Assembly (NCBI GenBank): GCA_964017155.1 | Contig: OZ024865.1 | Span: 16,994,399-17,058,398 of the forward strand | Direction of reading: 5' to 3' | Length of the DNA: 64,000 bases | Origin: Oasisia sp. SBJ-2009 | Lineage: Eukaryota; Annelida; Polychaeta; Sabellida; Siboglinidae | Shown here: positions 24,609-58,257 of the stretch, in pieces | How positions within the stretch are numbered: the first letter of the stretch is position 1 | Layout of the letters: the number at the start of each line of letters is the position of its first letter | Notes under the pieces: generated by a model | Seen by the model: the letters and a program-made list of their open reading frames with translations, nothing else | The model's database searches: none | Told to the model about the DNA's origin: nothing | Made by a program: the position numbers and the translations under genes

Positions 24609-24920
24609 CAGGGTTTAAATTTAGCGGGGGCTCAGGGTGGCCCCTACATTTACTGGGTCCCCATATGTGCAACTTTGTGGGCCCGGCTGGCCTCCAGATC
24701 AAACATATCGGACCACAGACAATTATTTATAAATAATGGCCTGACAACTTCCTATCTCAGAGGCCAAGGCAAAGAAAATGTCATTATTCACTTTATCAGT
24801 AAATGATGCTGGCTGCTGCCTGTGGTGGGGTTGGGGGGGGGGGGGGGGGGCAGAAGGTTGCTGCCCTTGTCCGGGTTACAATTGATTGACAAGGGTTTGC
24901 TGAGGTGGACAAACCTGTTG
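24609..24920. mobile_element. Partial copy of the CAGGGTT transposon family
   Basis: It starts cagggtttaaatttagcggg, the terminus of the complete element at 54715-55849, and ends in ggcagaaggttgctgccctt ... acaaacctgttg, which matches that element's interior on the opposite strand. A G homopolymer (about 24834-24850) lies within. It is internally deleted and lacks the second end. Confidence 0.65.
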
Positions 24921-25130
24921 ATTAGAGAGTGGATCGTAGGAGAAAGAGATATGTCATTTTCACGAATTTTACACATGACATGTGTCGATGGAGACTAATT
25001 AATGTCTGAAATTGCCAATACCATGAATACATAATCCTAGCGGGAAATCAAAGAAACATTATAATGGCCGCCTATGGAAAATCAATTGGTGGTATCTACC
25101 CTAATTGAAATACGCCCCGCCCCGTTTTAC
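24913..25130. repeat. Dispersed repeat copy 1 (partner at 37225-37430)
   Basis: About 200 bp here match 37225-37430 in the same orientation, sharing cataatcctag, gggaaatcaaagaaacatta and taatggccgcct. The copies lie on either side of the Gypsy element and differ by small indels. Confidence 0.75.
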
Positions 25131-28451: not shown

Positions 28452-28559
28452 CTTAGTATAGGTATGTGACAAAACTCTGGTTTCAAGCGCAGCGCACTTC
28501 GGCAGGAAGCCTCGTTTTCGTTGTTCTCAATGCCGAGTGCTGCTCAACGATAGCACTCC

Positions 28560-29827: not shown

Positions 29828-30469
29828 ACCGGTAGGGTTACTGCATATATTGTTAACTGTAGTATGTAACCGGTAGGGTTACTGAATATATTGTTAACTG
29901 AATAGATTGTTAACAGGACTATGTAACTGGTAGGATTACTGAAACTGTAGTTGGGGAGAACCCATAAATCACCTCCCCCTAGCTGTTTACCCCATGGTGC
30001 CATGTGTCATCAAGGCAGCCAACACAGAATGGAATCATATCCTGTTACCGCTGGGGTGCAAGGGTTGCACAATCAAGAAGGATGCAGATAACAGATTGCC
30101 TCCCTAGAAAAACTGCGTGTTGACATGTGTCATAACTGCCAGCAGGCCCAGACACATCCTGTTTACTACCATTGAGCAAGAGTTCTGCATTTAGCTTTCA
30201 TTCCTAGAAAAACCATGGACAGGATGTAATTCCTGTATAAAAGAGCCGTGTTTTGGACACTCTCTATCATCCCTTGTAAAACGCAAGAAAGACAACTTGT
30301 AGGAGAGAGAGAGTACACATAGTACGGCTACTACCAGTGGTAGTACTGAGCCGTATTCAGCTACGGTGTAGTGACTGCATTCCTAGTTGGGGTGAGCACA
30401 CATGACAATAAATGGTCTATTAATTTACGCGTGTGTGTTCTGTCTTCAATGGTAAATCCCCCGTTTACA
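29824..30469 (+). mobile_element. Probable solo LTR, 646 bp
   Basis: The segment starts TGTAAC and ends GTTTACA, as LTRs do (TG...CA), sits within a TA repeat, and contains a TATA box (tgtataaaag, about 30230) followed by AATAAA (about 30405). Near its start ccggtagggttactg is repeated about 60 bp apart. No internal retroelement sequence or second LTR is visible, so it would be a recombined remnant. An alternative is a MITE with accidental promoter-like words. Confidence 0.55.
30230..30410 (+). promoter_or_regulatory. TATA box and polyadenylation signal of the solo LTR
   Basis: tataaaag near 30233 and aataaa near 30404 are spaced as in an LTR R-region. Located about 275 bp upstream of the transposase ATG, this promoter could drive it. 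Confidence 0.45.
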
Positions 30470-30508
30470 TATATATATATATTTTTCAGTCATAGCGTGA
30501 TAGCCATC

Positions 30509-33433
30509 ATGAAGAAGAAAAGAACAGCTCCACTACCCGAGAAGCCAGGCGTCGTCCGCCAACATATACATGATAATTATGATTGCTCCAGTCTTGGGAA
30601 TTCCAACATGTTGAAGAATGGACACGTGCTGAAACTATTCATAGAGAATGTGAAGTCCATTGCAAAGACCATTCATGTCATTCATTCCCAATTCCCTGGC
30701 TACCATGTTGCTCCAAATGACTTGAAGCTGGTTGTTATTAAATTTGACAAATTCAAACATATGGACAGAGAAAGGGAAAAGGAGGATTTCATTGTGTTTT
30801 GTGAGACTCTTTTTAAAGTCAGTACCAGTGCTACTGCATTACCGGTAGTTGCTAATCCTATGCAAGTTGATGCAGTGCCAGATCCGCAGCCTGGTCCTTC
30901 AGATGCAGTGCCAGATCCGCAGCCTGGTCCTTCAGATGCAGTGCCAGATCCACAGCCTGGTCCTTCAGATGCAGTGCCAGATCCACAGCCTGGTCCTTCA
31001 GATTCGGTGCCACATCCGCACCGTGGTCCTTCATCTGGACAGGTTCTCACGCCACGTAAAGTATTACTTAGAAAGCGACTACATTTTGTGTCAAATCGAC
31101 GCAGGGCGGAAAAGAAAAGGTATCTAAAACGCGTCAGAAAACTTAGGGCAAATATTGATATACAAAGGGTGAATCAGATCAAATATCTCAATCAGGACAT
31201 TGCACGCAAGAAACTCTCTATGAAAACAAAGGATGCGACAATTACATTATTAAAACGACAAATTATGGGGGCGAAGAAGGACGCAAATCTTTCCTGTGAT
31301 GCAGAACTTTTCAAACGGCTTAAGCGTACACATAAACGTTTGAAGGACAACCGAAAAAAAAAACACATTGGTCCAAAGAAAACAGTTTCAAAGGGGTTTG
31401 CCAAGTTAAAACAAGAACTAAGTGCAAAGGATGAAATTATTCGAATTTATGAAAATGATATGTGTGCACTCAGGGATAAGCTTGAGGAAGTGGAAAAAGA
31501 CAAGAAGGAGAAGGAAACCAAGAGGGATGGCAAAACATACAGTAGTGCAATGCGCATGCAAGTGTACGATGCCATCGTCAATATGGTCCCTACCCAAAAC
31601 ATTCCAACGTTAATTGCAAGTTACGCAAAACGCACAGGGGACAAACTAAGTGCCATTCCTTGCCGAACAACTGTCGAACAGATGGCCAGGGAATTGGACT
31701 CCTTGGCGGATCTGAAAACCGCAGAAATGTCTATGAAGACCAGCAACCTCACTCTAGGATTCGATGCAACGACCCAGGAGCATGTTCATCTAAATAGCAT
31801 CCATTTCACCTCAAAATCAACATGTGAAGTAGTAGCTATTGATGAACTTGCCGGAGGCACAGCGGAGGATTATTGTGATCACGTGTGTTCATCGGTAGAT
31901 AATCTTGCGGACGTGTATGCCGACTACCACAAGGAGGATTATCAGTTCTGTCGTTCGACGATTATTGGTAACATAGCCAATACCATGACGGACAGAGTGG
32001 CTGCTAATCATGCAGCAATTTCGAAAGTCAGCGAGAAGTGGGGAAAAAGTTTAAACGAATTAAACTGCCATCTCCACCCGCTGGACACGATGGCAAGTTC
32101 CTGCAGGTCAGCATTGAAACAAATGGAGACGGGACGTGGAGAACTGTTTGGAAAAGATTGTCTTGCTGGAAATCTAGTCTTGTCCATAAACAAATTTCGT
32201 TACAAAGCAGGAAAAGGGGACCCAAAAGGGTTTGTTACGGTCTTGATCGACCAAAAGCTACCAAAGGGAATTCTCCCAAGGTATCGTGGAAATAGACTCC
32301 ACATTTTATACCATATCTGTGGGCAACTGCATCATAATTACAGTCTCTTCTTGGAGTTTTTCACGAAGGGTACAGTTTCATGTGGGAGGCTTCAGTCGTG
32401 TATAAGGACAGATTTCACCAATGAGATAGCAAAAATGCAAATCCAGTGTCTTGGGCTCATTGGCAAACTTCTGACGGGACCGTGGATGTCGATCTTCTAC
32501 GCAAGTTCCAGCTCCGCTACCATTGACCACATCGAAGGGATTGGCGTCGTTAAAAATGTCATCTCGGAACTGAAGAGGACAAGAGAGTCACCACAGCTTG
32601 CTCTGACTCGCAACTCTGATTTCTTCGGCCGACCCCTTAGTGAAGATCCCACCCTTGTAAGTCTCCAAGGACAGCCTTCCAACATGGACCTATTTGCCCG
32701 AATGATGTCTGCTTGCTTTGAGGCCATCATTGCTGTACTTGAAAGGCAGTATCAACGATACTTCAGTATGACCATGACGGATATTCTGAAGGAGGAGACC
32801 AGTTCTGCCCGCCTACATAACATTGATGCAGAGGAGGTTATGGGCATGTTTGGGGCCATGCAGGAGCGAGCGAAACATGCTAGCATGGACTTCCTTGTAG
32901 CTAGGATGCGTGCCAAAAAAAATGCTGTTGTACCCTATTTGGATGAAATGTATGAGGATGAGAGGGAGCGTGCTGTGAGCTGGGCCATAGGGCGGGGCAG
33001 AAAGAAGAGACGGGTCGCAAGACAGAAACAGTCTGAAGTCCGGGTAGAACTTTCACGAAGGGCAGCACTCAAGCAACAGAAGAAGAATGAGAAGGAGAGG
33101 AAGGAAACAGAGAAGAAGTTGCATTCGGTGGATATTGGCAAATTGCGGACGGAATTCCCCAATATTTCGGATGAGACTCATCAATCTTTGCTTCAAATTC
33201 TGAACGGTACCATTGTGGGACTTGACATCTGCCACACATGGTATGATGGAGACACAAATGAGCAGGTTGTTTATTCAGGGAGGGTTGAAAAACTGAAAAA
33301 GACCAAACTGAAGAAATGCTATGTAATTGCATACTGGTTGGACAATGAAAGTTATGAAGATGCAACAGACTATGAGATGACTCCGTGGGCCCTTGGGGCA
33401 GATCTTCTGTATGAGGACTTGGTTTTGTGCTGA
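30509..33433 (+). CDS. Intact DDE/RNase H-like transposase, 974 aa, unclassified family
   Basis: I choose the ATG at 30509 because upstream codons lie in the solo LTR and TA repeat and because a tttttcag acceptor lies just before it. Layout: an N-terminal domain (residues 1-115), a repeat of DAVPDPQPGPS (about 120-175), a Lys/Arg-rich coiled-coil region (about 185-350), then a catalytic-type core with Asp419 in LGFDATTQEHVHLNSIHF, Asp495 in NIANTMTDRVAANHA, and Cys520-His522 in NCHLHPLD. The order Asp, Asp, then C.LH is like that of hAT transposases, which is inference. A basic segment (GRGRKKRRVARQKQ) could be a nuclear signal. Similar proteins occur widely in invertebrate genomes as uncharacterised repeats. 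No stops or frameshifts, so it may still be active. Confidence 0.85.
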   Translation: MKKKRTAPLPEKPGVVRQHIHDNYDCSSLGNSNMLKNGHVLKLFIENVKSIAKTIHVIHSQFPGYHVAPNDLKLVVIKFDKFKHMDREREKEDFIVFCETLFKVSTSATALPVVANPMQVDAVPDPQPGPSDAVPDPQPGPSDAVPDPQPGPSDAVPDPQPGPSDSVPHPHRGPSSGQVLTPRKVLLRKRLHFVSNRRRAEKKRYLKRVRKLRANIDIQRVNQIKYLNQDIARKKLSMKTKDATITLLKRQIMGAKKDANLSCDAELFKRLKRTHKRLKDNRKKKHIGPKKTVSKGFAKLKQELSAKDEIIRIYENDMCALRDKLEEVEKDKKEKETKRDGKTYSSAMRMQVYDAIVNMVPTQNIPTLIASYAKRTGDKLSAIPCRTTVEQMARELDSLADLKTAEMSMKTSNLTLGFDATTQEHVHLNSIHFTSKSTCEVVAIDELAGGTAEDYCDHVCSSVDNLADVYADYHKEDYQFCRSTIIGNIANTMTDRVAANHAAISKVSEKWGKSLNELNCHLHPLDTMASSCRSALKQMETGRGELFGKDCLAGNLVLSINKFRYKAGKGDPKGFVTVLIDQKLPKGILPRYRGNRLHILYHICGQLHHNYSLFLEFFTKGTVSCGRLQSCIRTDFTNEIAKMQIQCLGLIGKLLTGPWMSIFYASSSSATIDHIEGIGVVKNVISELKRTRESPQLALTRNSDFFGRPLSEDPTLVSLQGQPSNMDLFARMMSACFEAIIAVLERQYQRYFSMTMTDILKEETSSARLHNIDAEEVMGMFGAMQERAKHASMDFLVARMRAKKNAVVPYLDEMYEDERERAVSWAIGRGRKKRRVARQKQSEVRVELSRRAALKQQKKNEKERKETEKKLHSVDIGKLRTEFPNISDETHQSLLQILNGTIVGLDICHTWYDGDTNEQVVYSGRVEKLKKTKLKKCYVIAYWLDNESYEDATDYEMTPWALGADLLYEDLVLC
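30870..31035 (+). repeat. 33-bp coding tandem repeat (DAVPDPQPGPS)5
   Basis: Five in-frame copies of a 33-bp unit encode a Pro-rich linker. The first copies are nearly identical and the last is diverged (SVPHPHRGPS), which indicates recent slippage within the transposase gene. Confidence 0.9.
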
Positions 33434-40057: not shown

Positions 40058-40543
40058 TGATAAACGATTCTTGGAGCCATAAACAAAAATAAATGTTTCA
40101 ATAATTTCATGATGTCTATTTTGAGGTTTATGAGCTAGATAAGACAAGATAAGACAAAATTAAAATTCATGGTAATTTCAAATATTATTATTTTGAATTT
40201 GTTGCCAGTGAGTGGTGATGTAGAGGGTAGCTATCTTCAAAGAGCTCTTAATATATTTCAAAATGTGTGTGGCGAATTCTATGTATGTTGAACTATATAC
40301 TAGCTGGCCAAGAACAAGTTCAAATGTAATTTTGGTATGACAATGCAGAAATAAGTAGTATGACATATCGTCAAAGCTAGGTACATCCTTAGACCTGGAA
40401 GTCGGACTGTTGTATGGTGCATGATGACCTAGAACTGTAGAGACGAGGTCAATCTCAGTTTTGTCAGTACTGGAGAAAGTCCAGGGTATGTTTGGGTGGA
40501 TATCATGGGCAGTGGCAGTGGCAGTGGCAGCACAGAAGACAGC
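40058..40543. other. Spacer left of the minisatellite
   Basis: No gene is supported. A cagtgg triplet-like run (40509-40530) borders the first minisatellite unit. Confidence 0.4.
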
Positions 40544-43500
40544 CAACAGGATGGAGGTGTGGGGTTTTGTACATACCTTATGTGGCACATGACACCCAAC
40601 AAGATGGAAGAATTGGGTTTTGTACATACCCTATGTGGCACATGCACCCAACAAGCTGGAAGCATGGGGTTTTGTACATACCTTATGTGGCACATGCACC
40701 CAACAGGATGGAGGCGTGAGGTTTTGTACATACCTTATGTGGCACATGCACCCAACAGGATGGAGGCGTGAGGTTTTTGTACATACCTTATGTGGCACAT
40801 GCACCCAACAGGATGGAGGCATGGGGTTTTGTACATACCCTATGTGGCACATAGCACCCAACATGATGGAAGCATGGGGTTTTGTACATACCCTATATGG
40901 CACATAGCACCCAACAGGATGGAAGCATGGGGTTTTGTACATACCCTATATGGCACATAGCACCCAACAGGATGGAAGCATGGGGTTTTGTACGTACCCT
41001 ATATGGCACATAGCACCCAAGAGGATGGAGGCATGGGGTTTTGTACATACTCTATGTGGTACATGACACCCAACAGGATGGAGGCATGGGGTTTTGTACA
41101 TACTCTATGTGGTACATGACACCCAACAGGATGGAGGCATGGGGTTTTGTACATACTCTATGTGGTACATGACACCCAACAGGATGGAGGCATGGGGTTT
41201 TGTACATACCCTATGTGGTACATGACACCCAACAGGATGGAGGCATGGGGTTTTGTACATACTCTATGTGGTACATGACACCCAACAGGATGGAGGCATG
41301 GGGTTTTGTACATACTCTATGTGGTACATGACACCCAACAGGATGGAGGCATGGGGTTTTGTACATACTCTATGTGGTACATGACACCCAACAGGATGGA
41401 GGCATGGGGTTTTGTACATACTCTATGTGGTACATGACACCCAACAGGATGGAGGCATGGGGTTTTGTACATACTCTATGTGGTACATGACACCCAACAG
41501 GATGGAGGCATGGGGTTTTGTACATACTCTATGTGGTACATGACACCCAACAGGATGGAGGCATGGGATTTTGCACATACTCTATGCAGCACATGACACC
41601 CAACAGGATGGAGGCATGGGGTTTTGTACATACTCTATGTGGTACATGACACCCAACAGGATGGAGGCATGGGGTTTTGTACATACTCTATGTGGTACAT
41701 GACACCCAACAGGATGGAGGCATGGGGTTTTGTACATACTCTATGTGGTACATGACACCCAACAGGATGGAGGCATGGGGTTTTGTACATACTCTATGTG
41801 GTACATGACACCCAACAGGATGGAGGCATGGGGTTTTGTACATACTCTATGTGGTACATGACACCCAACAGGATGGAGGCATGGGGTTTTGTACATACTC
41901 TATGTGGTACATGACACCCAACAGGATGGAGGCATGGGGTTTTGTACATACTCTATGTGGTACATGGCACCCAACAGGATGGAGGCGTGGGGTTTTGTAC
42001 ATACTCTATGCAGCACATGGCACCCAACAGGATGGAGGCATGGGGTTTTGTACATACTCTATGTGGTACATGGCACCCAACAGGATGGAGGCGTGGGGTT
42101 TTGTACATACTCTATGCAGCACATGGCACCCAACAGGATGGAGGCATGGGGTTTTGTACATACTCTATGTGGTACATGACACCCAACAGGATGGAGGCAT
42201 GGGGTTTTGTACATACTCTATGTGGTACATGACACCCAACAGGATGGAGGCATGGGGTTTTGTACATACTCTATGTGGTACATGACACCCAACAGGATGG
42301 AGGCATGGGGTTTTGTACATACTCTATGTGGTACATGACACCCAACAGGATGGAGGCATGGGGTTTTGTACATACTCTATGTGGTACATGACACCCAACA
42401 GGATGGAGGCATGGGGTTTTGTACATACTCTATGTGGTACATGACACCCAACAGGATGGAGGCATGGGGTTTTGTACATACTCTATGTGGTACATGACAC
42501 CCAACAGGATGGAGGCATGGGGTTTTGTACATACTCTATGTGGTACATGACACCCAACAGGATGGAGGCATGGGGTTTTGTACATACTCTATGTGGTACA
42601 TGACACCCAACAGGATGGAGGCATGGGGTTTTGTACATACTCTATGTGGTACATGACACCCAACAGGATGGAGGCATGGTTTTTTTTACATACTCTATGT
42701 GGTACATGACACCCAACAGGATGGAGGCATGGGGTTTTGTACATACTCTATGTGGTACATGACACCCAACAGGATGGAGGCGTGGGGTTTTGTACATACT
42801 CTATGCAGCACATGGCACCCAACAGGATGGAGGCATGGGGTTTTGTACATACTCTATGTGGTACATGACACCCAACAGGATGGAGGCATGGGGTTTTGTA
42901 CATACTCTATGCAGCACATGGCACCCAACAGGATGGAGGCATGGGGTTTTGTACATACTCTATGTGGTACATGACACCCAACAGGATGGAGGCATGGGGT
43001 TTTGTACATACTCTATGTGGTACATGACACCCAACAGGATGGAGGCATGGGGTTTTGTACATACTCTATGTGGTACATGACACCCAACAGGATGGAGGCA
43101 TGGGGTTTTGTACATACTCTATGTGGTACATGACACCCAACAGGATGGAGGCATGGGGTTTTGTACATACTCTATGTGGTACATGACACCCAACAGGATG
43201 GAGGCATGGGGTTTTGTACATACTCTATGTGGTACATGACACCCAACAGGATGGAGGCATGGGGTTTTGTACATACTCTATGTGGTACATGACACCCAAC
43301 AGGATGGAAGCATGGGGTTTTGTACATACTCTATGTGGTACATGACACCCAACAGGATGGAGGCATGGGGTTTTGTACATACTCTATGTGGTACATGACA
43401 CCCAACAGGATGGAGGCATGGGGTTTTGTACATACTCTATGTGGTACATGACACCCAACAGGATGGAGGCATGGGGTTTTGTACATACTCTATGTGGTAC

Positions 43501-43879
43501 ATGACACCCAACAGGATGGAGGCATGGGGTTTTGTACATACTCTATGTGGTACATGACACCCAACAGGATGGAGGCGTGGGGTTTTGTACATACTCTATG
43601 CAGCACATGGCACCCAACAGGATGGAGGCATGGGGTTTTGTACATACTCTATGTGGTACATGACACCCAACAGGATGGAGGCATGGGGTTTTGTACATAC
43701 TCTATGCGGCACATGGCACCCAACAGGATGGAGGCATGGGGTTTTGTACATACTCTATGTGGTACATGACACCCAACAGGATGGAGGCATGGGGTTTTGT
43801 ACATACTCTATGTGGTACATGACACCCAACAGGATGGAGGCATGGGGTTTTGTACATACTCTATGCAGCACATGACACC
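40544..43879. repeat. Minisatellite, 53-bp unit, about 63 copies
   Basis: The unit caacaggatggaggcatggg + gttttgtacatactctatgt + ggtacatgacacc (53 bp) is repeated head to tail for 3.3 kb. The first eight or nine units (to about 41030) are the most diverse (ccttatgtggcacatgcacc, ccctatatggcacatagcac); later units are nearly identical, with a recurrent variant (tctatgcagcacatggcacc) at about 41580, 42010, 42115, 42800, 42910, 43600, 43705 and 43865. Frames that stay open through it are by-products of the repeat: 53 is not a multiple of 3, so three units cycle through all frames. Confidence 0.97.
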
Positions 43880-44415
43880 CCTGTTATTTGATCATTTAAT
43901 GTTAAACTGAAGAGGCACCTTCACTTAAAAGACAGCAGTATGTTTAACAGTAAGTAGCAAGCAATTAGACGTTTTACAAAGAGAAAACAAGACTAATGTT
44001 TTGCATGTAAACTTTAATTCATCCACAACACAAAATCACATAAAACAACACAGGTCACAATTATATGTTCATGTTATGAACAAAAGGAAGCACATTCACC
44101 GGTACAGAGGCAAGCAACAGTGGTTTGTTGCATTGTATGGTTACATCAAACTTGTCTAAGGCTAATTGTATCAGTGCAATATCTGGTGCTTAGGACTGTT
44201 TAAAGTGAATTTATAATTCACCCCGGAAACACAATGTTCACTTGTTCTATTTATCACAAACACAGCCAATAAATGTTACTGAATTATCCTACACAGATGT
44301 ATCCTGTAGATTGGGACATTTTACAATTCACCATCTTAACAACAGTTACTTCGCATCAGTAACTTAAGGGGGTTGTTTATAGTATGTCATGCATTGGTGT
44401 CGGGGGCTATGGGCA
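43880..44415. other. Spacer right of the minisatellite
   Basis: AT-rich, with no supported gene or defined element. Confidence 0.45.
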
Positions 44416-46431: not shown

Positions 46432-49400
46432 TGTGTGTGTATGTGTGTGTGTGTGTGTGTTTGTGTAAGTACATGAGTATCCCTGCATGTATGTGCACCC
46501 ACATGTGAGCATGAATGAAGAGACAAACATACAAGGTACAAACAGGACTGTACAGGTACAGACATTATAGACACATCTACAGACTCACCACTCCTAAATA
46601 ACTAAATGCTAAATAACAGTACATATGTGTAGGGAGGCAAATAGGTCAAATTAAATAATCACGTGATTACACAGGATGGCATAAAAAATAAATCGCATGA
46701 ACCCAGCTGCAGTTAGTTTGAACTTTTGACTTCTTGGCACAGCACATGGCGGCTATATTTGTGTATATGACAATAATGGTGTGTTAACTAATAATACACA
46801 ATACTGACCTCCCAAGAATTCAGTATCCTGACTGATTCACCTAATCAGGCAATAGAATTATGACGGTCAACACGGGATAAAAATCTGTAATTGTCTGAAG
46901 GGTGACTGTTGCTACAAACGATGCAAACTTATCTACAAGAGGGAGCCACATGATGCTCACCGAATAAAAAATTGCTTCAGGAATTAGTGACGAGAGAATG
47001 GTCACTCTCCTAAAATACGTTCTGATGATGAAAATGTCTCAAACAAATGGATAAACATACAGAACGTATAATGCCAATGATTGAATGAGGTGCAAATGGG
47101 CATTTTTCATTAAAAAACGCGAATCGGGACTTTTACTAGGTACACAAGAGTAAGCACAGCCAGACGGCATCAGTGGGGGCAACAACATGATAGTGCCACC
47201 TACCTGAGGGTAAGAGAGCACACTGTTCACCCCCACACAGTCTCCACAAGACTTGACCGTCCTCAAAGCATGTTGACAGAGCCTGAATGTCCACTTGGTC
47301 CACGGCTAGACCTGTGTCTGAGCAGAAACGTCACGCATCAGTGGTACAACTTTTACAGTTTCAACAAGATTTAATTTTTAGCAGTCTGGGCTCTCCAATA
47401 CGGAATTGCCCAGCTGTCACAGGCAGGCTGGAGAATAAACTAGTTCACCACAGATTATCACTATCAGTGATCACTTCTCTCACAAGTGACAGGTTTCTAA
47501 CCAATGTTAGCAATGTGTCATATGTGATATCATGCTGTGTGATCATTTATATTATAGGTGTTTATGCAGGTTAAAACTGTTGTCAGTCCAAAATTTTGTG
47601 GTAAAAGCATGCATGTTAATTGACAAAGATACAAGCCTGTCGAGATGTATTTTGACCTTAAATAAGTTATAGACATTAAACATGCATGACACTGTGACAC
47701 GCATTTTCAAAGCATAATCGACAATGTATGTATTTTATGGAGGATAAGCAAAGGTACAGGTATCTTTTTAAATGTTGGCAGAATCTGGAAATATTTTCAA
47801 CTGATCCAAAACTAGATGGAAGCATATTCCAAAGAATAGGTGCTGCTGTAGAAAAAAACCCTACTCGGTATATCATCATGTACCAACCTGAGAAATCAAA
47901 CTTCCACGTAATCGTAGCACTAGTAGCGCCCTCTGTACGTGCAAGGTAGCACATATTCCAATCTCGCTCCTCCTTCCGTTGTATTCCCGTAGCCTCATAC
48001 ACCAAGTGCTGCCATCCAGTGGTCGACTCTTCATTCGAAATGCGAACATAGCAGTCTTTGGCACAACTATACTTGACATGAAGCAACCGGTTTGCTTGTT
48101 CGTTCTCGGTCAAGCGAATCACTGTACTGGCCTTGACCTCCGCTGACCCAGTTTCACCTCTGCCCTGCCGCCAAGCCAGTGACCCTGAACTCCGTCCAAC
48201 ACATTCGTCTGTATCCGCCGTCTTCGCCGACATCATTTCGACAATTTCCGCCACAAGTCGGCGCTGCAACACATCTTTTCGACTGTCTGGTAGCGCCACC
48301 TGGTTTTCGTTGCGTAACCGCACAATCTGCCTGACAAGCCACGACTCGCGACAGTCGGAGCGACGCGCAAGAACCTCCGTCGCCTGCGTAGTGTAGCGCC
48401 ACGTCACGTCCTGAATGTCGTCGACGGCGAATGCGATGACGTATGTGAGTTTCTTGCCCCAGCCTGACTCATACACGAGTGGCTTGTCACATGCATTCTC
48501 ACACGAGTCACAATGCAGCCATCGCTGCTGGGCCTCAGAGAAAACTTCCGTCCACACATGGTCCGTCCAGTCAAGCACATATCGCGCCTCAAACCCCATT
48601 GCTCGGCAACACAGGGTGAAACAGTTCGCCCACTCACCACATCTCCCCCGCCTTGTCTCCAGCAACTTCTCCGGGTCATTGTAACGCGGGAATCGCATGT
48701 GGATGTTACACGTCGCACAGCGGTAGTTCTCGACGCGACTCGCTCCCCACCGAAGTTCGTCAGCGTCTGGTGGCGCCATCCCCACTGACTCGGTGCTGCC
48801 ACCACACTGGACACATGGCGGTGCATCGACCCAACGGAAGAAGTCGAACTTGAACCACGCTAACAACTCCAGGAGTTCGGCATCACGTAGCTCGGCACCT
48901 GCATCACCAGACGATGATGTCGCCTGGTGTTTCTCTTCTGCCTGTTTTTGTAGTTTGGTGACAGGGATGCATTGCCGTGCCTTCGCCTGGAGGTCTGCTC
49001 GTTCATACAACTTCACCAACTTGAGGCTGGAGTTGAGCTTCGCAAGGAATTGTGTCTCTTTTCTCTGCAACACAAAAAAAGATTGAATGTCAGGGGTCGA
49101 AATAGCGGTAGTCCGGTAGTCCGAGGACTACCAGAAACTTGGTCAGACTACCAAAGATGATGATAGCAGTAGTCTGACCACAACATTTGGGAAATTTTTT
49201 TTCGAATGTTTTTCATGTTATTTGGCTTAAATCTGGGCCACAGATATATCTGAGGACTACCAGATTTCCAAACTAAGTAGTCCTGCTGACTACCAGAACT
49301 GTTTGAGTTATTTCTACCCCTGAGAGATCTTGTATTTCACATATATATTTGTACTGTACTAATGTGATAAGCAGAATCTGTCAGTGCTAGGTCATGAGGT

Positions 49401-52237
49401 AAACACCAGGTCATCTAATAAACCCTGTGCCATAACATAAACACTACACAATATATTTAAAAATACATAATTTTCAATATGTAAACAAATTTAATCATAA
49501 GTGTTAATTACCATAATAACCAATACTTACATTTAAGTTACGTGTGATATGAGGTAAACTCAAGGTCATGATGAAAACACAAAGTCATGACATAAACACA
49601 GTACTATGATAACAATTATAAACATTCAGCCACAATGTAAGCATCAAATCGTGCTCGAGGTAAACATCAAGTCATGAAGAAAACATTTAGATCATTGGTT
49701 AATCATTCAGATATATATAAACACCTGACAAGCACAAAGAAAATCAATAGAAACTTACAAATATTTCTTGATCACTTTGTTGCTGTGCTGCGGTTCTGGT
49801 GGCCTCTGCTCCTGTGGCGCCACCTGGTGATTGTGCTGATGGTACCGAACTCATCAGACGTTGTCGGTGGTGCAGCAACTCATCTCGAACTTTGCGTGTT
49901 CTATCAAGCAGTGCGTGCTGAGGCAGGGTAAGATGTTCACCGTCCTGCAGCAAGTTATCATTCTATCACTTTTCAAAACAATCTTTTAACAAGCTCTTAT
50001 TTTATATCAGAAATAAAATTTGCAAGATTATTAATTCATATACCTGAACTTCTATGGCATCTGTTTGGGATACTTTATTTAAACAAGTGTAGTTTAAACC
50101 AGTTAACAGTACTACTGTCTAGACTACTGGTTAAGGCTCAAAGACAAAATTACTCAATTAATAAAATAATGATTTTTTTTAGGCTCAGGCTATTTCCCGA
50201 GCTGCTCGGTAAATAAGAAACAATCGAGTCCTTATTTCCCGAGCTGCTCGGTAAATAAGAAGCAGTCGAGTCCTTATTTGTCGAGCAGCTCGAGAAATAG
50301 CGGCGACTCGTCTCCTTATTTGTCGAGCAGATTTGTTGATGAATCTGTGGGCTCTTACAAAGGATTTTCGTGCACATACTAATTGTTAGTAGTAAATGCG
50401 ATGCTGTTGGGTCGTTTCCTGCTGGTATGTATCCGTTTTCATGAGAAACAACGAGTTTTCTTAGCCATCGATCTGCTCGAGAAATAGCGGCGACTCGTCT
50501 CCTTATTTGTCGAGCAGATGTTTTGATGAATCTGTGGGCTCTTACAAAGGATTTTCGTGCACATACTAATTGTTAGTAGTAAATGTGATGCTGTTGGGTC
50601 GTTTCCTGCTTGTGTTTATCCGTTTTCATGAGAAACAACGAGTTTTCTTAGCCATCGATCTGCTCGAGAAATAACGCCAACTCGACTCGCTATTTGTCGA
50701 GCTGCTCGAGAAATAGCGGCGACTCGTCTCCTTATTTGTCGAGCAGATGTTTTGATGAATCTGTGGGCTCTTACAAAGGATTTTCGTGCACATACTAATT
50801 GTTAGTAGTAAATGCGATGCTGTTGGGTCGTTTCCTGCTGGTATGTATCCGTTTTCACGAGAAACAACGAGTTTTCTTAGCCATCGATCTGCTCGAGAAA
50901 TAGCGGCGACTCGTCTCCTTATTTGTCGAGCAGATGTTTTGATGAATCTGTGGGCTCTTACAAAGGATTTTCGTGCACATACTAATTGTTAGTAGTAAAT
51001 GTGATACTGTTGGGTCGTTTCCTGCTTGTGTTTATCAGTTTTCATGAGAAACAACGAGTTTTCTTAGCCATCGATCTGCTCGAGAAATAACGCCAACTCG
51101 ACTCGCTATTTGTCGAGCTGCTCGAGAAATAGCGGCGACTCGTCTCCTTATTTGTCGAGCAGATTTGTTGATGAATCTGTGGGCTCTTACAAAGGATTTT
51201 CGTGCACATACTAATTGTTAGTAGTAAATGCGATGCTGTTGGGTCGTTTCCTGCTTGTATGTATCCGTTTTCATGAGAAACAACGAGTTTTCTTAGCCAT
51301 CGATCTGCTCGAGAAATAGCGGCGACTCGTCTCGTTATTTGTCGAGCAGATTTTTTGATGAAACTGTGGGCTCTTACAAAGGATTTTCTTGCACATACTA
51401 ATTGTTAATAGTAAATGCGATGCTGTTGGGTCGTTTCCTGCTTGTATGTATCCGTTTTCATGAGAAACAACGAGTTTTCTTAGCCATCGATCTGCTCGAG
51501 AAATAGCAGCGACTCGGCTCGTTATTTGTCGAGCAGATCTGGGCGTGCATGAATGGGGGCACACTAAAAGGCGGGCCACAATTGGCAGACCGCGCGGATA
51601 CGATTTGCGCGTGCGATCGTAAATATTGGAGACTTTTATTATTGTGTTGTACTAACAATTCTAAATGTAATACCGAAAGGTGTTACGTGTATTTATACAA
51701 TCTTAGAAATAAATTAAAATGTTAGGCCTTACTAATTCACTAGTTATTTTAGTATGTTCTCATTTACAGCTCAATGTGTGACCTTATTTTATTAAATATT
51801 CCACAATTCATGCATTGTTATGACCTATATGTTTACGTTAGTCATTTAAACTGATTTGTGAGTTTTGTTGCATGTTTTTGGCAGGCAAAAATGAACATAC
51901 GGATGTTGTATTCGCAACTTTGTAACTTTTAGGTGTGTTCAGGCACATACTTTTTAAGGGCTGTATGCTACATACTATAATTATATATATGTATATATAT
52001 ATATATATATATACTTTATATAATTATATTACTTTATTCTGTGTCATTTGCATAGCAGTTGATGCCGTTGATGTCTTAATTGTTGCGTGGTAGTACAGTA
52101 TCATAACGGAAAGACTGATTTGTGAGTTTAATTTGCCAATACTGTTGTTATATTTTATTTGCATGTGTTTGGTAAGGTAAGAATATGCATATTGTCACTT
52201 CTAAGGGGTGTTCATTTTGAACATGATATACATTTTA

Positions 52238-52317
<80 letters not shown>

Positions 52318-52362
52318 ACAACCAACATACACATACCACGTACATACATAAACACACCACAT

Positions 52363-52423
<61 letters not shown>

Positions 52424-55400
52424 ATGTAGACATATACAAATCTCATAAATATACACACACACATCTTACAAACACACCGCACACCACATAAACACACAAA
52501 CACAAATATAAGCACATAAACACACATGCATATAACAGATTCACACACACAGATCATTCCATAGACTCATTGCATGAAGCTGTTGGGACAATTCTTCCTA
52601 AGAGCACTCAATCTTTTTTCTGTGAAGTGGTTGCTGTAGTCTTCACCGAGCTATTCCTCATCCAGATCCTGTTGCAATCCTTGGTGTCATTTCTGCAATT
52701 ATAATTCAGGATGACAATGACTTTTACAATGAATTGTAAAATTATAGAATAGTGTTAATTTTGAATTTACCATGTAAAACAATCAACCACATAATAATGT
52801 TTATTATAATTCAGATAAGTTGTGTTTACCCCAATGAATGCTGCAGGGCCTACAACTAAACTGGATATTATTAGAAACAACTGGAATGTAGGAAAGATAT
52901 AACAAAGTCACTGTAATATAATATAATAAATTATTGAAACAGCATGTATAATTTCAAAATACAATGATCATGATACGTCAAGTACAAAACAAATTAGGCA
53001 GAAGATGGTCTTTGTGATTTAGTACTCAGGGTTACATAAACCTTACTTCTGACTATAATTTTTTTTATAGTCTTAATAAAAATTCAGTCACAGAGTAATA
53101 AATAGCAATTACCTGTAGAAGTTGCAAATTGTTAAATCAATGATCTCTTAATCCACACACCAAAGCCAGGAGCTGTCTTCCCTATCTAAGACACAGCTTG
53201 ATATGAGGTCTGAAAATTCAAACCCTATACACTTGTATAACTACAAGCCAGCAGCTGCCAAGCAGAAGCCTGAAACAATATACACTGTGTACTGCCCAAT
53301 TTGTTAGGGGTAATTATCCCACTAATTGCTCAACTCCAGGGGTAAAAATGTCCTCCTGGGACAACCCACTTAGACAGAGCCACAGCACTCATTTGATGTC
53401 AGCAGGGGAGCTTTTAAGCACATCAAACCAGCCTGTGCAATCTAGGATGTTGAAACTAGGCACAGAGTAGGGGGAAATAAATAAATAAGGAAGTAACTCT
53501 AACCAACTTAGGTAGTGCCACCAACTAAGTGTCAGAGGGGAAAGTCATGCAGTAATAATTTGCATTAGTCACTGGGTAACATAACTGGATTTTGGTTCTA
53601 TTAGAAGTTTACTATTATTTAAACATATACTCCAGATTTCAAGTTACATATTTCGAAATATTGAGCACAATATTGGCGATCAGCAGTCATAATTTATAAT
53701 AGAGTCGATGTAAGCACCGTATCTTCTCTGTTTATTGTTTGCCATGTTTTGACATCTGTCAGATATACAATATGTAAAATTAGAAAAATACTCTATTTCA
53801 TTTCCTCAAAAATACCTTATCCCTGTGAGACAGTGACAGTGTACATAATAATTGCAACCACATGTCAGAGAATGTATGTGCATAATTATTCTTTAAAAAG
53901 AGAGGGCTATTTCTTTGAGCAGATACATGTGTGAGGTTATTAATAGTTAATGGTAAACGTATACTTGATTCCTTTTTGGTAAATTTGGCACAATGTTGGT
54001 TTCGGGTGGTTGACCAACTTTGGTCTGTATAGTTATAAATGGATAACAAAATTAATGTCCATTCCTCAAAACTATATTACATATGTGACACAGTGATAAT
54101 GTAGTTCTATTAGAAGTTCACTATTATTTAAGCAGACACCCCAGATTTCAAGTTACATATTTCTAAATATTGAGCACAATATTGGTGATCAGCAGTTATA
54201 ATTATACAGTGTAAATAAATATATAAATATATATTTATAGTATATATATATATATACACTGTATATATACATATATGTGTGTGTATATATATGTATGTTA
54301 ATATTATATATGCCAGTATGTAATGTAAGTGGATGTAAGCACCATATGTTCTCTGTCTATTGTTCGCCATGTTTCGACATCTGTCAGATATTTCAATACA
54401 ATATGTTAAATTAGAAAAAAATACTCTATTTCATTTCCTCGAAAATACCTTATCTCTGTGAGACAGTGACAGTGTACATAATAATTGCAACCACATGTCA
54501 GAGAATGTACAATTACTCTTTAAAAAGAGAGGGCTATTTCTTTGAGTAGATACATGTGTGAGGTTATTAATGGTTAACTGTAAATGTATACTTGATTCCC
54601 TTTTGGTAAATTTGGCACAACGTTGGTTTAGGGTGGTTGACCAACTTGGGTCTGTATATAGTTATAAATGGATAAAAAAATTAATGTCCAATCCTCAAAA
54701 CTATATTACATATGCAGGGTTAGAATTTAGCCTAAAATGAGTGGGGGCCAGCAGGGCCCCCACTTTTCAAAATCTAGGGGCCCGATACAAAAAGTGGGGG
54801 CCATGCAACAAATGCACGTTTAAGTCGCATTGTAACTATAAGTTTATTCAACACATGCCACAAACAATGGCTGTAGCCTATGTAGCAGCTTAATTAGTTA
54901 ATGCTAATGATAATTTCAAGAGATCAATGGAGGGTTGTTAATTTTCCTCTGAATCGGAGCTGCTTGAAACCTGTAGATCTTCCTCTTTGGGCTGCCTGGG
55001 TTTGTAGATGGCAACACGAGGTCGCCTCTTCCTGCTCCCCCACCCACCCACAACAGCTTAATGGCCATAAACTGTTTAAACCAAGCATTGATGCCATAGC
55101 TTTATGTAGAGACCCGTCTACCCGTCATTAGGACGGGTAAAAACGAATATGGACAGGCAGTTATATGGGTGGACCGGTAAAAAAATGAAGGAGCAATAAA
55201 AAGGTTTCCAACACCATAGATATTGTTAGTTATGCCTTGAAAGTGAGTGTAAATGGTGTCATAGGTGTATTTGTAGCCCATTTCAGGTCATCAGGCACAT
55301 CTGAAAGTTCGCAAACTAGCTTAACAGTTAACATCCATGTGTCCACCAAAACATGTATGCCTGGCAATTTTTTTATCCTGCATAAAGCCCTGATTGATGC

Positions 55401-57775
55401 CTATGTACCTATATATCTATTGCCACAGCATTATGGGAAATGACAGTTTAGTTACATCGTAGAACTTCATAGTAGATTATGTCTAAGACCTGTCTATTTC
55501 TAGTAACACAATCCTAGGCTATTAACTCTTTTTCCCTGGCCTAGTCAACAGGTTTGTCCAACTCAGCAACCCCTTGTCAATAAATTTTAACCCTGACCAA
55601 GGGCAGCAACCTTCTGCCCCCCTTCCACCCCCACCCCAGGCAGCAGCCAGCATCATTTACTGGTAAAGTGAATAATGACATTTTCTTTGCCTTGGCCTCT
55701 GGGATAGGAAGTTGTCAGGCCATTATTTATCAATTTTACAGTTCTGTGACCTGGGGGCCAGTCGGGCTCACAGAGTTCAACATCTGGGGACCCGACAGTA
55801 AATGTGGGGGCCAGCGGGCCCCTGGGCCCCCGCTAAATTCGAACCCTGCATATGTGACACAATTATAGTGTATGAATAATTGTCATTATTTGCCAGTGTA
55901 TATTTGTTAAAAAGCAATATTTTACTTTGATTGACCTAATAAATGCATCCGGTTAATCTAATTGACATATGTCATAGTAATTGTACTTTAACTAACTGTA
56001 TATGTTAACTGCATCATGCTTTATATGAATTTTCTAGGGTAAAAAAAACAGAATTTTGTCAACATATTGCCCCAACGTTGGCCTAATATTGGCACTACGT
56101 TGATTTAGGGTTGTTTGCCCAATGTCAGTCCAACGTTGGTTGATATTTGTGTAAAAAATGGAATTGCATAATTACGAAAACGGATACATACAAGCAGGAA
56201 ACGACCCAACAGCATCGCATTTACTACTAACAATTAGTATGTGCAAGAAAATCCTTTGTAAGAGCTCACAGATTCATCAAAAAATCTGCTCGACAAATAA
56301 CGAGACGAGTCGCCGCTATTTCTCGAGCAGCTCGACAAATAGCGAGTCGAGTCGCCGCTATTTCTCGAGCAGATCGATGGCTAAGAAAACTCGTTGTTTC
56401 TCATGAAAACGGATACATACAAGCATGAAACGACCCAACAGCATCGCATTTACTACTAACAATTAGTATGTGCAAGAAAATCCTTTGTAAGAGCTCACAG
56501 ATTCATCAAAAAATCTGCTCGACAAATAACGAGACGAGTCGCCGCTATTTCTCGAGCAGATCGATGGCTAAGAAAACTCGTTGTTTCTCATGAAAACGGA
56601 TACATACAAGCAGGAAACGACCCAACAGCATCGCATTTACTATTAACAATTAGTATGTGCAAGAAAATCCTTTGTAAGAACTCACAGATTCATAAAAAAA
56701 TCTGCTCGACAAATAACGAGACGAGTCGCCGCTATTTCTCGAGCAGCTCGACAAATACCTAACGAATCTGGCGTTATATCTCGAACAGCTCGACAAATAA
56801 AAACTGTCGATTGTCACACGTTCTTTGCTTCGTCTGTTCAATAACTGTACATGAGAACGCTTTATGAAGTTCTTTATTTGTGATACAACTCCCAGACATA
56901 CACTGCGGCTTTCACGCGACCTCGCCATCAGCGGCCCATCAGCAGCACAACAACAAGCCAACACAGGGAGGGTTCATTAACTCAATGACGTTACATCGAT
57001 AGGGACCTATTTCTCATCAGAACGGATAAATACAGACAGGAAACTTTCCAGCAGCGTTACATTTACTACAAACAGTTAGTCTGTCAACTTACATGCCATA
57101 ACAATACTCCTAAGTGCACGAATACGCATATCCAGATCTGCTCGAGAAATAAGGCGAGGTCGGTCCCTTATTTCCCGAGCAGCTCGACAAATAAGGCGAC
57201 GTCGGGCTGCTATTTCCCGAGCAGCTCGCTAAATAGCCAGTCCCTTTTTTTTATTAAATTGTTAGATGATGATTGTTTAGGCAAAAATATACTCAACTAT
57301 ACCAGTACCAAGACGAGTACTTCTGCCTCAACTCAGCCGTCATGTAACTTACTAAACGTGTTAACTTTGTCTTTGTAGTAATGTATTGTAGTGACACGTG
57401 TAATCTATGTATTGTTAAAATACGGAATATTCTGTATTAATTATGAGATGAATATTACATCCTTCATAAAGGCAACGGAGCCCGTCCCTTATTTTTCGTC
57501 TGGCAGGCGGCAACTGTACGTAAGACTATTGATGTAACCCGTACCTCTTCAAATCCCATTTCGAAGAGACATTCCATAGCTCCATTGATGGGTAACAAAC
57601 GTTTCTCGACTATCGGATTTCCAACTCTTATTTGACGGTATTTTATATTTTCTGGGTCATTGAGGACATTGTTCGCAAACCTGAGTAACAAGTTTGTCAC
57701 ATCCAGAAAAACATCTCTAGGGTTTTCAAGAAGTTGTTGGATACCGGTCGATAAAACCTTTCCAGAAGAAGCCAT
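46055..57775 (-). CDS. NGLY1: Peptide:N-glycanase (complete gene, five coding exons)
   Basis: This enzyme removes N-glycans from misfolded glycoproteins in the cytosol by cleaving the glycan-asparagine amide bond, acting in ER-associated degradation. Coding exons, 5' to 3': 57775-57545, 49944-49759, 49064-47888, 47317-47204, 46233-46055. They join in phase to 1887 bases (628 residues; the human protein has 654). Domains: N-terminal PUB (residues 1-77 and on), zinc-binding and transglutaminase-like core (about 200-370) with Cys281, His308 and Asp325 as catalytic triad, and C-terminal PAW. Only five coding exons is few for this gene. Intron 1 is 7.6 kb because of a foldback element. It shares its promoter region with SETD6. 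Confidence 0.95.
46303..46470. repeat. (GT)n microsatellite in NGLY1 intron 4
   Basis: A GT run of about 70 bp followed by interrupted GT blocks (ggtgtgtg, tttgtg) to about 46470. Confidence 0.95.
46480..47200. other. NGLY1 intron 4, distal part
   Basis: No element with defined ends or extra exon is seen in the rest of this intron. Confidence 0.5.
47204..47317 (-). CDS. NGLY1: NGLY1 exon 4 (PAW domain)
   Basis: Acceptor ...gtttctgctcag, donor GTAGGT, 114 bp, phase 1 at both ends. It encodes TGLAVDQVDIQALSTCFEDG and VLWRLCGGEQCALLPS, matching the middle of the PAW domain between the SWKF region and the last exon. Confidence 0.88.
47715..47880 (-). mobile_element. CR1/L2 LINE 3' fragment next to an NGLY1 splice donor
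   Basis: The minus strand reads APILWNMLPSSFGSVENISR and FCQHLKRYLYL, the C-terminal end of the same LINE type as the copy at 9254-10768. It begins within about 20 bp of the exon 3 donor and is in frame with exon 3. Confidence 0.85.
47888..49064 (-). CDS. NGLY1: NGLY1 exon 3 (transglutaminase core and start of PAW)
   Basis: A single 1177-bp exon, acceptor ...tttgtgttgcag, donor GTTGGT. It carries zinc-binding pairs CVQC (Cys223, Cys226) and CATC (Cys255, Cys258), the nucleophile in [20 protein letters not shown] (Cys281), DHVWTEV (His308) and HCDSCE (Asp325); the spacing 27 and 17 between the three catalytic residues equals that in human NGLY1. It ends in SATITWKFDFS at the start of the PAW middle part. 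The GTTGGT donor is weak. If the intron is retained, the frame stays open for about 70 more codons through a LINE fragment. Confidence 0.95.
49091..49322. mobile_element. MITE in NGLY1 intron 2
   Basis: Ends are CAGGGGTCGAAATAG and, inverted, CAGGGGTAGAAATAA. The interior repeats the words ggactacc/ggtagtcc in both orientations. An eroded relative is near 23960-24035. Confidence 0.75.
49330..49755. other. NGLY1 intron 2, remainder
   Basis: AT-rich intron with short words such as aggtcatga/gtcatgacataaaca recurring between 49390 and 49680, a weak degenerate repeat. No gene. Confidence 0.5.
49759..49944 (-). CDS. NGLY1: NGLY1 exon 2 (end of PUB and linker)
   Basis: Acceptor ...acttgctgcag, donor GTAAGT, 186 bp, phase 0 at both ends. 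It starts DGEHLTLPQHALLDRTRKVR, which follows the MGFEE of exon 1 exactly as in other animal NGLY1 proteins, then a low-complexity linker (SPGGATGAEA). Confidence 0.92.
50182..51545. repeat. Left arm: tandem array with 187/229-bp alternating units
   Basis: The marker ttagccatcgatctgctcga starts at 50461, 50648, 50877, 51064, 51293 and 51480: spacings 187, 229, 187, 229, 187. The longer units carry an extra 42-bp block (aacgccaactcgactcgcta...). This makes a higher-order repeat of 416 bp. Each unit contains palindromic blocks such as tcgagctgctcga. Confidence 0.9.
51560..52235. other. Centre of the foldback element, left part
   Basis: AT-rich sequence with a (TA)n run (about 51982-52015) and repeated wording (actgatttgtgagtttt / ctgatttgtgagttta at 51850 and 52112) that indicates a rough internal duplication of about 265 bp. 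No gene. Confidence 0.5.
52239..52424. repeat. (CA)n microsatellite
   Basis: Two long CA runs (52239-52315 and about 52360-52422) separated by a short complex stretch. Confidence 0.95.
52560..53590. other. Centre of the foldback element, possible captured sequence
   Basis: No known coding domain is visible on either strand. The composition differs from the arms and may be captured host sequence. It ends where the 509-bp duplication starts. Confidence 0.4.
53596..54714. repeat. Direct duplication with 509-bp period
   Basis: The sequence from ttctattagaagttta (53596) is repeated from 54105, with high similarity through ccacatgtcagagaatgta, gagagggctatttctttgag and cctcaaaactatattacata. The second copy gained a TA/GT microsatellite (about 54215-54300) and then the CAGGGTT element at 54715. 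Confidence 0.88.
54715..55849. mobile_element. CAGGGTT-family transposon, 1135 bp, with exact empty site
   Basis: It runs from CAGGGTTAGAATTTAGCC to ...GCTAAATTCGAACCCTG, flanked by CATATG (54709-54714 and 55850-55855). The paralogous first repeat copy (about 54070) has the uninterrupted sequence ttacatatgtgacac, so the insertion is proven within the window. Subterminal regions are G/C-rich (gtgggggccagcagggcccc). No transposase. An alternative reading is ATAT with ends starting GCAGGG. Confidence 0.85.
55856..56159. other. Centre of the foldback element, right part
   Basis: Continues the 509-bp duplication briefly, then AT-rich sequence with loose repeats around caacgttgg (56070-56140). No gene. 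Confidence 0.45.
56160..57244. repeat. Right arm: inverted 187-bp tandem array
   Basis: Same repeat as the left arm in opposite orientation: gatcgatggctaagaaaact at 56372 and 56559 (187 bp apart). Distal to about 56800 the units are strongly diverged but keep the blocks ctgctcgagaaataa and ccgagcagctcg up to the end. Confidence 0.88.
57254..57540. other. NGLY1 intron 1, proximal part
   Basis: About 290 bp of intron between exon 1 and the foldback element. Nothing recognised. Confidence 0.5.
57545..57775 (-). CDS. NGLY1: NGLY1 exon 1 (PUB domain, start codon)
   Basis: ATG at 57775; 231 bp (77 codons), phase 0, donor GTACGG. It encodes the PUB domain that binds p97/VCP in the family: VFLDVTNLLLRFANNVLND, EKRLLPINGAMECLFEMGFE. 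The start gives a length and N-terminus like those of other NGLY1 proteins. Confidence 0.95.
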
Positions 57776-58257
57776 TTTTTTTAAATGGCAAAATGTATGC
57801 TGGCTGCTGTGAAATTGATGTTATTCCCAAATGTGAGGATCGTAGCGTTGCCATTGCAATATATGTGCTCGTTCCTTGACATAATTCCCCCGTATCTTGG
57901 TTGTATAAAGTTAACTGAATAACTGGCACTGAATCAGATAACGTTATACACCAAAATAAGACGTTTGATTTGTGCTACCCGTTATAGTGAAGGGACCAGA
58001 CCTGTATTTTTAGCCCACTTTTTAGGTACACACGCCAGTGATTTTATTTCGCTGCAGGTGATTACGTCAGTACCAGCTTTCACTACCCATGGCACATCCC
58101 TTTAAAAACACCTCCTTTAACGTCACGTAATGAAATCCCCCAGCGAAGAGTGTGGTCGGCAATTTAAGTCCTTAAAAAAGCAAGCGGAAGGAAACAAATT
58201 CAGGTCTGACCCCATTTGGTCGCGCCGTGCTACGGTTGTACATGTGCTCGTTTAACG
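57776..58257. promoter_or_regulatory. Bidirectional promoter region of NGLY1 and SETD6
   Basis: The two start codons face away from each other across 482 bp. No TATA box stands out on either side, as is common for head-to-head housekeeping gene pairs. Both promoters must lie here unless there are remote 5' exons. Confidence 0.7.

Follow-up and report, generated by a model that had tools for sequence, protein, structure and literature searches.

A foldback element in NGLY1 intron 1

Positions 50182-57244 of the window (the whole 64,000-nucleotide stretch of Oasisia DNA analyzed here) are a foldback element of 7,063 bp, with fixed termini and inverted arms made of tandem 187- or 229-bp units. 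It belongs to a dispersed family of foldbacks, likely non-autonomous and of the Rehavkus/MuDR type, which were probably moved in trans by a Rehavkus-like transposase of the MULE superfamily; the best candidate source of that enzyme is a 40.7-kb copy on contig C11. The element lies in intron 1 of NGLY1, between two open frames on the minus strand. The gene-upstream frame (57464-57820) contains the PUB exon (PF09409, 65.6 bits) and the gene-downstream frame (47676-49127), which outruns its exon, contains the transglutaminase core and PAW exon. Among the best 120 of 2,552 NGLY1 relatives, those with a species name reach at most 58% identity and the others up to 94%. An exact target-site duplication (TSD), TTTTTTTTA, occupies 50173-50181 and 57245-57253; two random 9-mers of the window agree with a probability of 7e-5. 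The ends read GGCTCAGGCTATTTCCCGAG...CTCGCTAAATAGCCAGTCCC, with GGCTCAGGCTATTT and GGGACTGGCTATTT as the outermost letters. The location in NGLY1 intron 1, the coordinates, the termini and the TSD had all been given in a first-pass annotation and proved exact; its inverted tandem-unit arms were likewise recovered, with the unit step now refined.

In the arm unit, a stretch of 145 bp is joined to either one or two dyad blocks of 42 bp, so that the repeat steps are ~187 bp (145 + 42) or ~229 bp (145 + 42 + 42); at its heart is a 23-bp near-palindrome symmetric at 20 of 23 positions. The left arm (50182-51538, plus strand; 1,357 bp) begins with a terminal domain (50182-50298, plus strand) bearing three such dyads, at 50192, 50234 and 50276, followed by six units at 187-229-bp steps. 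Of the 15 other loci that we read, 11 have the outer 100 bases of this domain at 97-100%. The right arm, on the minus strand and 1,069 bp long as bounded here, comprises two full units and a partial one (56176-56800) and a 444-bp terminal domain (56801-57244). The longest complementary pairs between the arms measure 618 nt (94%) and 582 nt (96%). Bases 17-235 of the right terminal domain are a diverged version (~70-72%) of the arm unit, and the array looks as if it had grown out of the end domain. Long frames spanning the arms are repeat read-through and were rejected as genes.

Between the arms lies a non-coding core with CA/TA microsatellites (51539-56175, plus strand), which contains a ~0.63-kb tandem duplication (53595-54085 and 54104-54714). 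Nested within the core is a DNA transposon (54715-55848) with the termini CAGGGTTAGAATTTAG..CTAAATTCGAACCCTG and the TSD CATATG (54709-54714 and 55849-55854), whose paralogous empty site survives at 54080-54085 in the core's internal duplicate. This nested transposon, whose termini begin with CAGGGTT, has a related piece (83%) at 24609-24925 of the window. Elsewhere, the window has a 53-bp minisatellite (40538-43880; 63 copies, 96% matches), and a 1,027-aa open frame (30350-33433) that lacks any Pfam match at 0.001 and contains in-frame repeats of 33 bp encoding DAVPDPQPGPS. Another open frame (25590-28526) encodes a reverse transcriptase, an RNase H and an integrase domain, and we take it from the domain order to be of the gypsy type.

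Dispersed copies, target duplications and an empty site

The host assembly (764 Mb, 33 contigs) yielded 357 matches to the arm unit (40 of 149 candidates scored) and 411 to the 444-base right end (40 of 226 candidates scored). Among the best 40 right-end candidates are at least 31 good ends, the window's included, that match at 89-100% along most of their 444 bases, and at least nine older relatives at 84-93%, most of which stop near base 249. The termini are defined at many places outside the window, and the end-less satellite that the first-pass annotation had named as a refutation is rejected. The unit query listed 25 loci beyond the window, and 15 of them were read. With the window these make 16 loci, both ends being found at 13, to which the C11 copy adds a further case; a single end was seen within the stretch read at C6:46890000, C3:3116000 and C12:19852000. 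Two arrangements stand apart: at C4:54659537-54683845 two oppositely oriented family copies apparently stand back to back, with a right end on the plus strand, a left core on the minus, a left core on the plus and a right end on the minus strand, and at C3:4033358-4035013 a right end is followed by units on both strands within 1.7 kb, perhaps a short coreless copy.

Across the 14 two-ended copies, exact 9-bp TSDs occur in nine, an 8/9 match in one and 7/9 matches in two, and two have none. The exact ones comprise eight among the 13 from the window and the loci read (TTTTTTTTA, TTCAATAAA, TTAATTATT, TTTTTTTAA, TTAATTAAT, TACATACAA, TTTCCTTAT and CTTATTTAA) and that of the C11 copy (TTTATTTTA). 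The 8/9 case is C1:54838000, with its left end set by eye, and those with 7/9 are C12:7204000 and C10:49717000. Simple insertion does not explain the two-ended copies lacking a TSD, C5:1662000 (4/9) and C8:37566000 (3/9). For the latter, a reciprocal exchange with C1:49537000 was considered and set aside: its exact pattern, which one changed base would hide, was not found. In a control on 12 copies, without C1:54838000 and C11, true flank pairs agreed in 8 of 12 cases and mispaired flanks in 0 of 132. Ten TSDs together have seven G or C in 90 bases.

An empty site is known for the copy on C7. When the flanks of this copy (C7:32366208-32376943) are joined with one TTCAATAAA, 13 further places match the query without a break across the joint, one of them at 83% and the rest at 96-100%, and at the C7 locus itself it splits into 1-150 and 142-291 around 10,436 bp. 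Therefore, the C7 copy is an insertion with a 9-bp duplication. The flanks themselves are part of a repeated gene-bearing element, present also at the 13 places, 12 of them 96-100% alike. The family thus displays the features of the foldback class, namely long inverted tandem-repeat arms flanking a centre, several loci, TSDs and an empty site, the last from the C7 copy and not from the window's. The mobile foldback family with 9-bp duplications that had been proposed from the window is borne out by the dispersed copies and the exact TSDs.

A large copy with a MULE-type transposase frame

The C11 copy spans 38491395-38532130 (40,736 bp). Its right end matches at 98% over 444 bases, and its left end at 91% across the outermost 150 bases, or at 98% across 180 after a shift of one 42-bp block; our reading covers the copy up to 38493573, from 38515900 to 38519901, from 38521599 to 38521950 and at the left end. 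Only one of the 86 matches to PF10551 in the genome (C11:38517402-38517689) falls inside a family copy of known span. The chance expectation of such a match is 0.005 for C11 and 0.02-0.04 for all copies, the latter figure assuming 11 kb per unmeasured copy. The match belongs to a 582-aa open frame with hits to PF21056 (89.7 bits), PF10551 (61.6) and Transposase_mut (27.3) and a sub-threshold one to SWIM, and the D-D-E triad (D, D225 and E337) is retained. By its sequence, this is a MULE-type transposase frame inside a TSD-flanked copy, and its link to the family, drawn from one copy, is likely.

Its top Pfam match is to ZSWIM1-3, a host-protein family. PF21056 groups host proteins of MULE descent, and a host-type gene must therefore be considered. 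Relatives of the frame above 40% identity in the same genome are all partial or broken, and only nine database proteins match it at 1e-10 in a search limited to similar-length proteins sharing exact words; together, these appear to fit a narrow transposon clade. The predicted structure (mean pLDDT 66) faintly suggests that the middle is RNase H-like.

Directly after the frame there is a GT, followed by a 232-bp tandem array (C11:38518910-38521630) of ~12 units by span, its middle being outside our reading. Each unit read contains an exon-like piece of 96 bp (VDKKPAKTQDQDVVVLDSSPLSSLPDEEVQLP), in phase and with AG/GT resembling splice sites. Its DVVVLDSS stretch resembles a SUMO-interaction motif, and a second place matching the array piece lies at C2:40193090 (94%). 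Past the array comes a frame with an RGRPKG motif like that preceding the C-terminal part of the relatives P0125 and P0129; P0126 has a looser version. A PHD finger is detected in P0129 by Pfam and in P0125 by eye only. With 150 of 1,191 candidates scored, PHD matches follow related transposase pieces on their own strand at a distance of ~1.1-2.3 kb at 10 loci, and one more lies inside a C5 cluster of transposase relatives, making 11 of about 32 loci. No PHD match was found in the C11 copy among these best 150 of 1,191, the reading there reaching the RGRPKG motif. The assignment to a MuDR/Rehavkus type, first suggested from the window, gains support from the 9-bp TSD, and the relatives with a PHD finger downstream have the Rehavkus layout.

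Compared by eye, none of the older end-relatives adjoins another MULE match. The locus C3:46212392, with MULE fragments nearby, was dropped, its orientation being incompatible with one element spanning both. Among the left-core matches scored (the best 40 of 830) none lies inside the C11 copy, so the small copies may not descend from it. We nonetheless offer, as a speculation that is rather more likely wrong than right, that C11 is an autonomous master: a giant foldback MULE with a transposase gene carrying its own minisatellite of ~12 in-phase 96-bp exons. Its non-autonomous offspring would evolve mainly by the number of dyad-bearing arm units, arm length being a means of varying the set of sites that the transposase binds.

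Proposed mobilization in trans and its alternatives

We propose, as the likely explanation, that the window element is a non-autonomous foldback DNA transposon that would be mobilized in trans like the other small copies. A Rehavkus-like transposase of the MULE superfamily, coming from elsewhere, would bind the terminal domains and probably also the many 23-bp arm dyads, by analogy with Galileo as portrayed in excerpts of PMC3688188 (all papers cited here are represented by such excerpts). It would excise the element and insert it into AT-rich DNA via a 9-bp staggered cut. The C11 copy, which ends like the small copies and has an open D-D-E frame, is the best candidate source, on the supposition that its gene is native to that element and works. 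The arms could lengthen and shorten by 187- and 42-bp steps through unequal exchange or replication slippage.

The strongest competing explanation is that the family is moved by another transposase, P/Galileo-like or from a different MULE, with the gene in C11 being a chance nested insertion. A single association of a transposase with a copy is known, an independent nested MULE is possible given that most of the ~35-kb C11 interior is outside our reading, and foldbacks have arisen in more than one superfamily, Galileo being described as a P element (PMC3688188). Against this, the 9-bp TSD fits MULE/Rehavkus elements, the excerpted text of PMC6446971 giving 8-11 bp as the TSD range of the MULE superfamily, and nine of 14 copies have exact duplications of this length; the low chance expectation of a MULE match in any copy also speaks against a coincidence. 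On balance, we regard a different transposase as unlikely, at odds of the order of one in a handful.

Still less probable is that the element is a vehicle that captures and transports DNA, as the first-pass annotation had supposed, in which case the centre should differ from copy to copy. In fact, one core of ~4.6 kb is common to 12 of the 13 two-ended copies compared, and the left core is present at at least 25 places at 97-100% (40 of 830 candidates scored). Therefore, the family mostly carries one cargo: the 9-bp duplications expected of several copies were found and their expected different centres mostly were not. The span of the nested CAGGG-element, moreover, falls within the core matched in all 12 core-bearing copies, and hence it was probably gained once and then carried along with the core. 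What can be said for capture comes from four loci at which the common core, or its left part, was not seen: the odd copy of the 13, C1:54838000, with a different core and LINE-like frames by eye; the 40.7-kb C11 copy; and C3:3116000 and C12:19852000, with one end seen each.

A dispersed satellite array inverted here by accident, without any mobile element, has a negligible probability: the unit is tandem and much repeated, but many of its listed matches are paired inverted arms at one locus, and a satellite without ends is ruled out for one copy by the C7 empty site and for the family by its fixed termini, TSDs and flank control.

To return to trans-mobilization, the copies also bear on its timing. 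Outside microsatellites, the window core differs at one position in 3,915 bases from each of C1:64657500 and C1:25074500 and at two in 3,914 from C10:49717000; the other eight copies differ from it by 1.14-1.36%. Yet the window element is 7.1 kb long and these three are 9.6, 9.4 and 12.2 kb, respectively, a spread arising mainly from the arms. Near-identical cores with unequal arm lengths thus point to recent transposition and unstable arms. Full units across copies number 2-9 and 2-26 per arm. Between copies, mean unit identity is 0.974 for left-left, 0.975 for right-right and 0.958 for left-right comparisons (250 units, 13 copies), by which left- and right-arm units are distinct. Long inverted repeats in an intron and near-identical dispersed copies are a source of rearrangement. 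Because one genome harbours both near-identical copies with unequal arms and a copy with matching ends that bears a candidate transposase, arm function and trans-mobilization become directly testable.

Relationship to known foldback systems

P-superfamily elements such as Galileo have TSDs of 7-8 bp, and the exact TSDs here are 9 bp. The TIRs of Galileo are described as long and internally repeated, each with several sites for transposase binding (PMC3688188), as may hold for the arms here; Galileo differs in its P-type THAP transposase from the present family with its MULE-type candidate and 9-bp TSD.

A foldback element may lack a known transposase, as in the published example of Tetris from Drosophila virilis (PMC4079207). 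The excerpted account presents it as non-autonomous, with ~220-bp tandem units in long TIRs and 8-10-bp TSDs, its unit being thought to derive from the outer domain and no transposase source having been found. Our family resembles it, by description and not by sequence, in being non-autonomous with long TIRs of tandem units on the ~200-bp scale, and the diverged arm unit inside the right terminal 444 bp parallels the outer-domain origin argued for Tetris; it differs in having a candidate transposase source.

Tm1, a Mutator/Foldback element of Meloidogyne, is reported to have composite TIRs built from a tandem motif, outer motifs that are asymmetric, TSDs mostly of 9 bp and a MULE-transposase copy beside non-autonomous copies (PMC3169594, as excerpted). 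It shares with our family the tandem-motif TIRs with unlike outer parts, the 9-bp TSDs and a copy with a transposase, in our case a candidate, alongside non-autonomous ones, and is set apart by its ~14-bp motif, Phantom-type transposase and copies of 1.1 and 2.6 kb.

Close parallels exist with Rehavkus, whose published hosts, in the excerpted literature, are arthropods and annelids and whose transposases combine a PHD finger with a minisatellite (PMC6446971). Rehavkus-1_TC of Tribolium is 9.5 kb long, and its inverted termini contain a 164-bp unit, mostly in runs of five and eight monomers (PMC10218199, as excerpted). The 9-bp TSD, the tandem units in inverted termini, the exon-like minisatellite after the C11 transposase frame and the PHD downstream in genomic relatives all recall this group; the 232-bp array and the arm units correspond to the minisatellites that it has near the transposase C-terminus or 3' TIR. 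Differences are the small copies without a transposase, the dyad-based units of 187/229 bp, the 40.7-kb size of the transposase-bearing copy and the lack of a PHD match in it among the 150 of 1,191 candidates scored. A Rehavkus/MuDR-type foldback family is thus likely, the Rehavkus likeness being one of layout and TSD and not of a tree. Although titles and abstract openings in the literature (with Repbase outside this scope) gave no published description of the present family, calling it an undescribed system, as was done at first, is too strong: its architecture is already known from foldback/Rehavkus elements, and the family is probably a variant of the Rehavkus/MuDR-type foldbacks.
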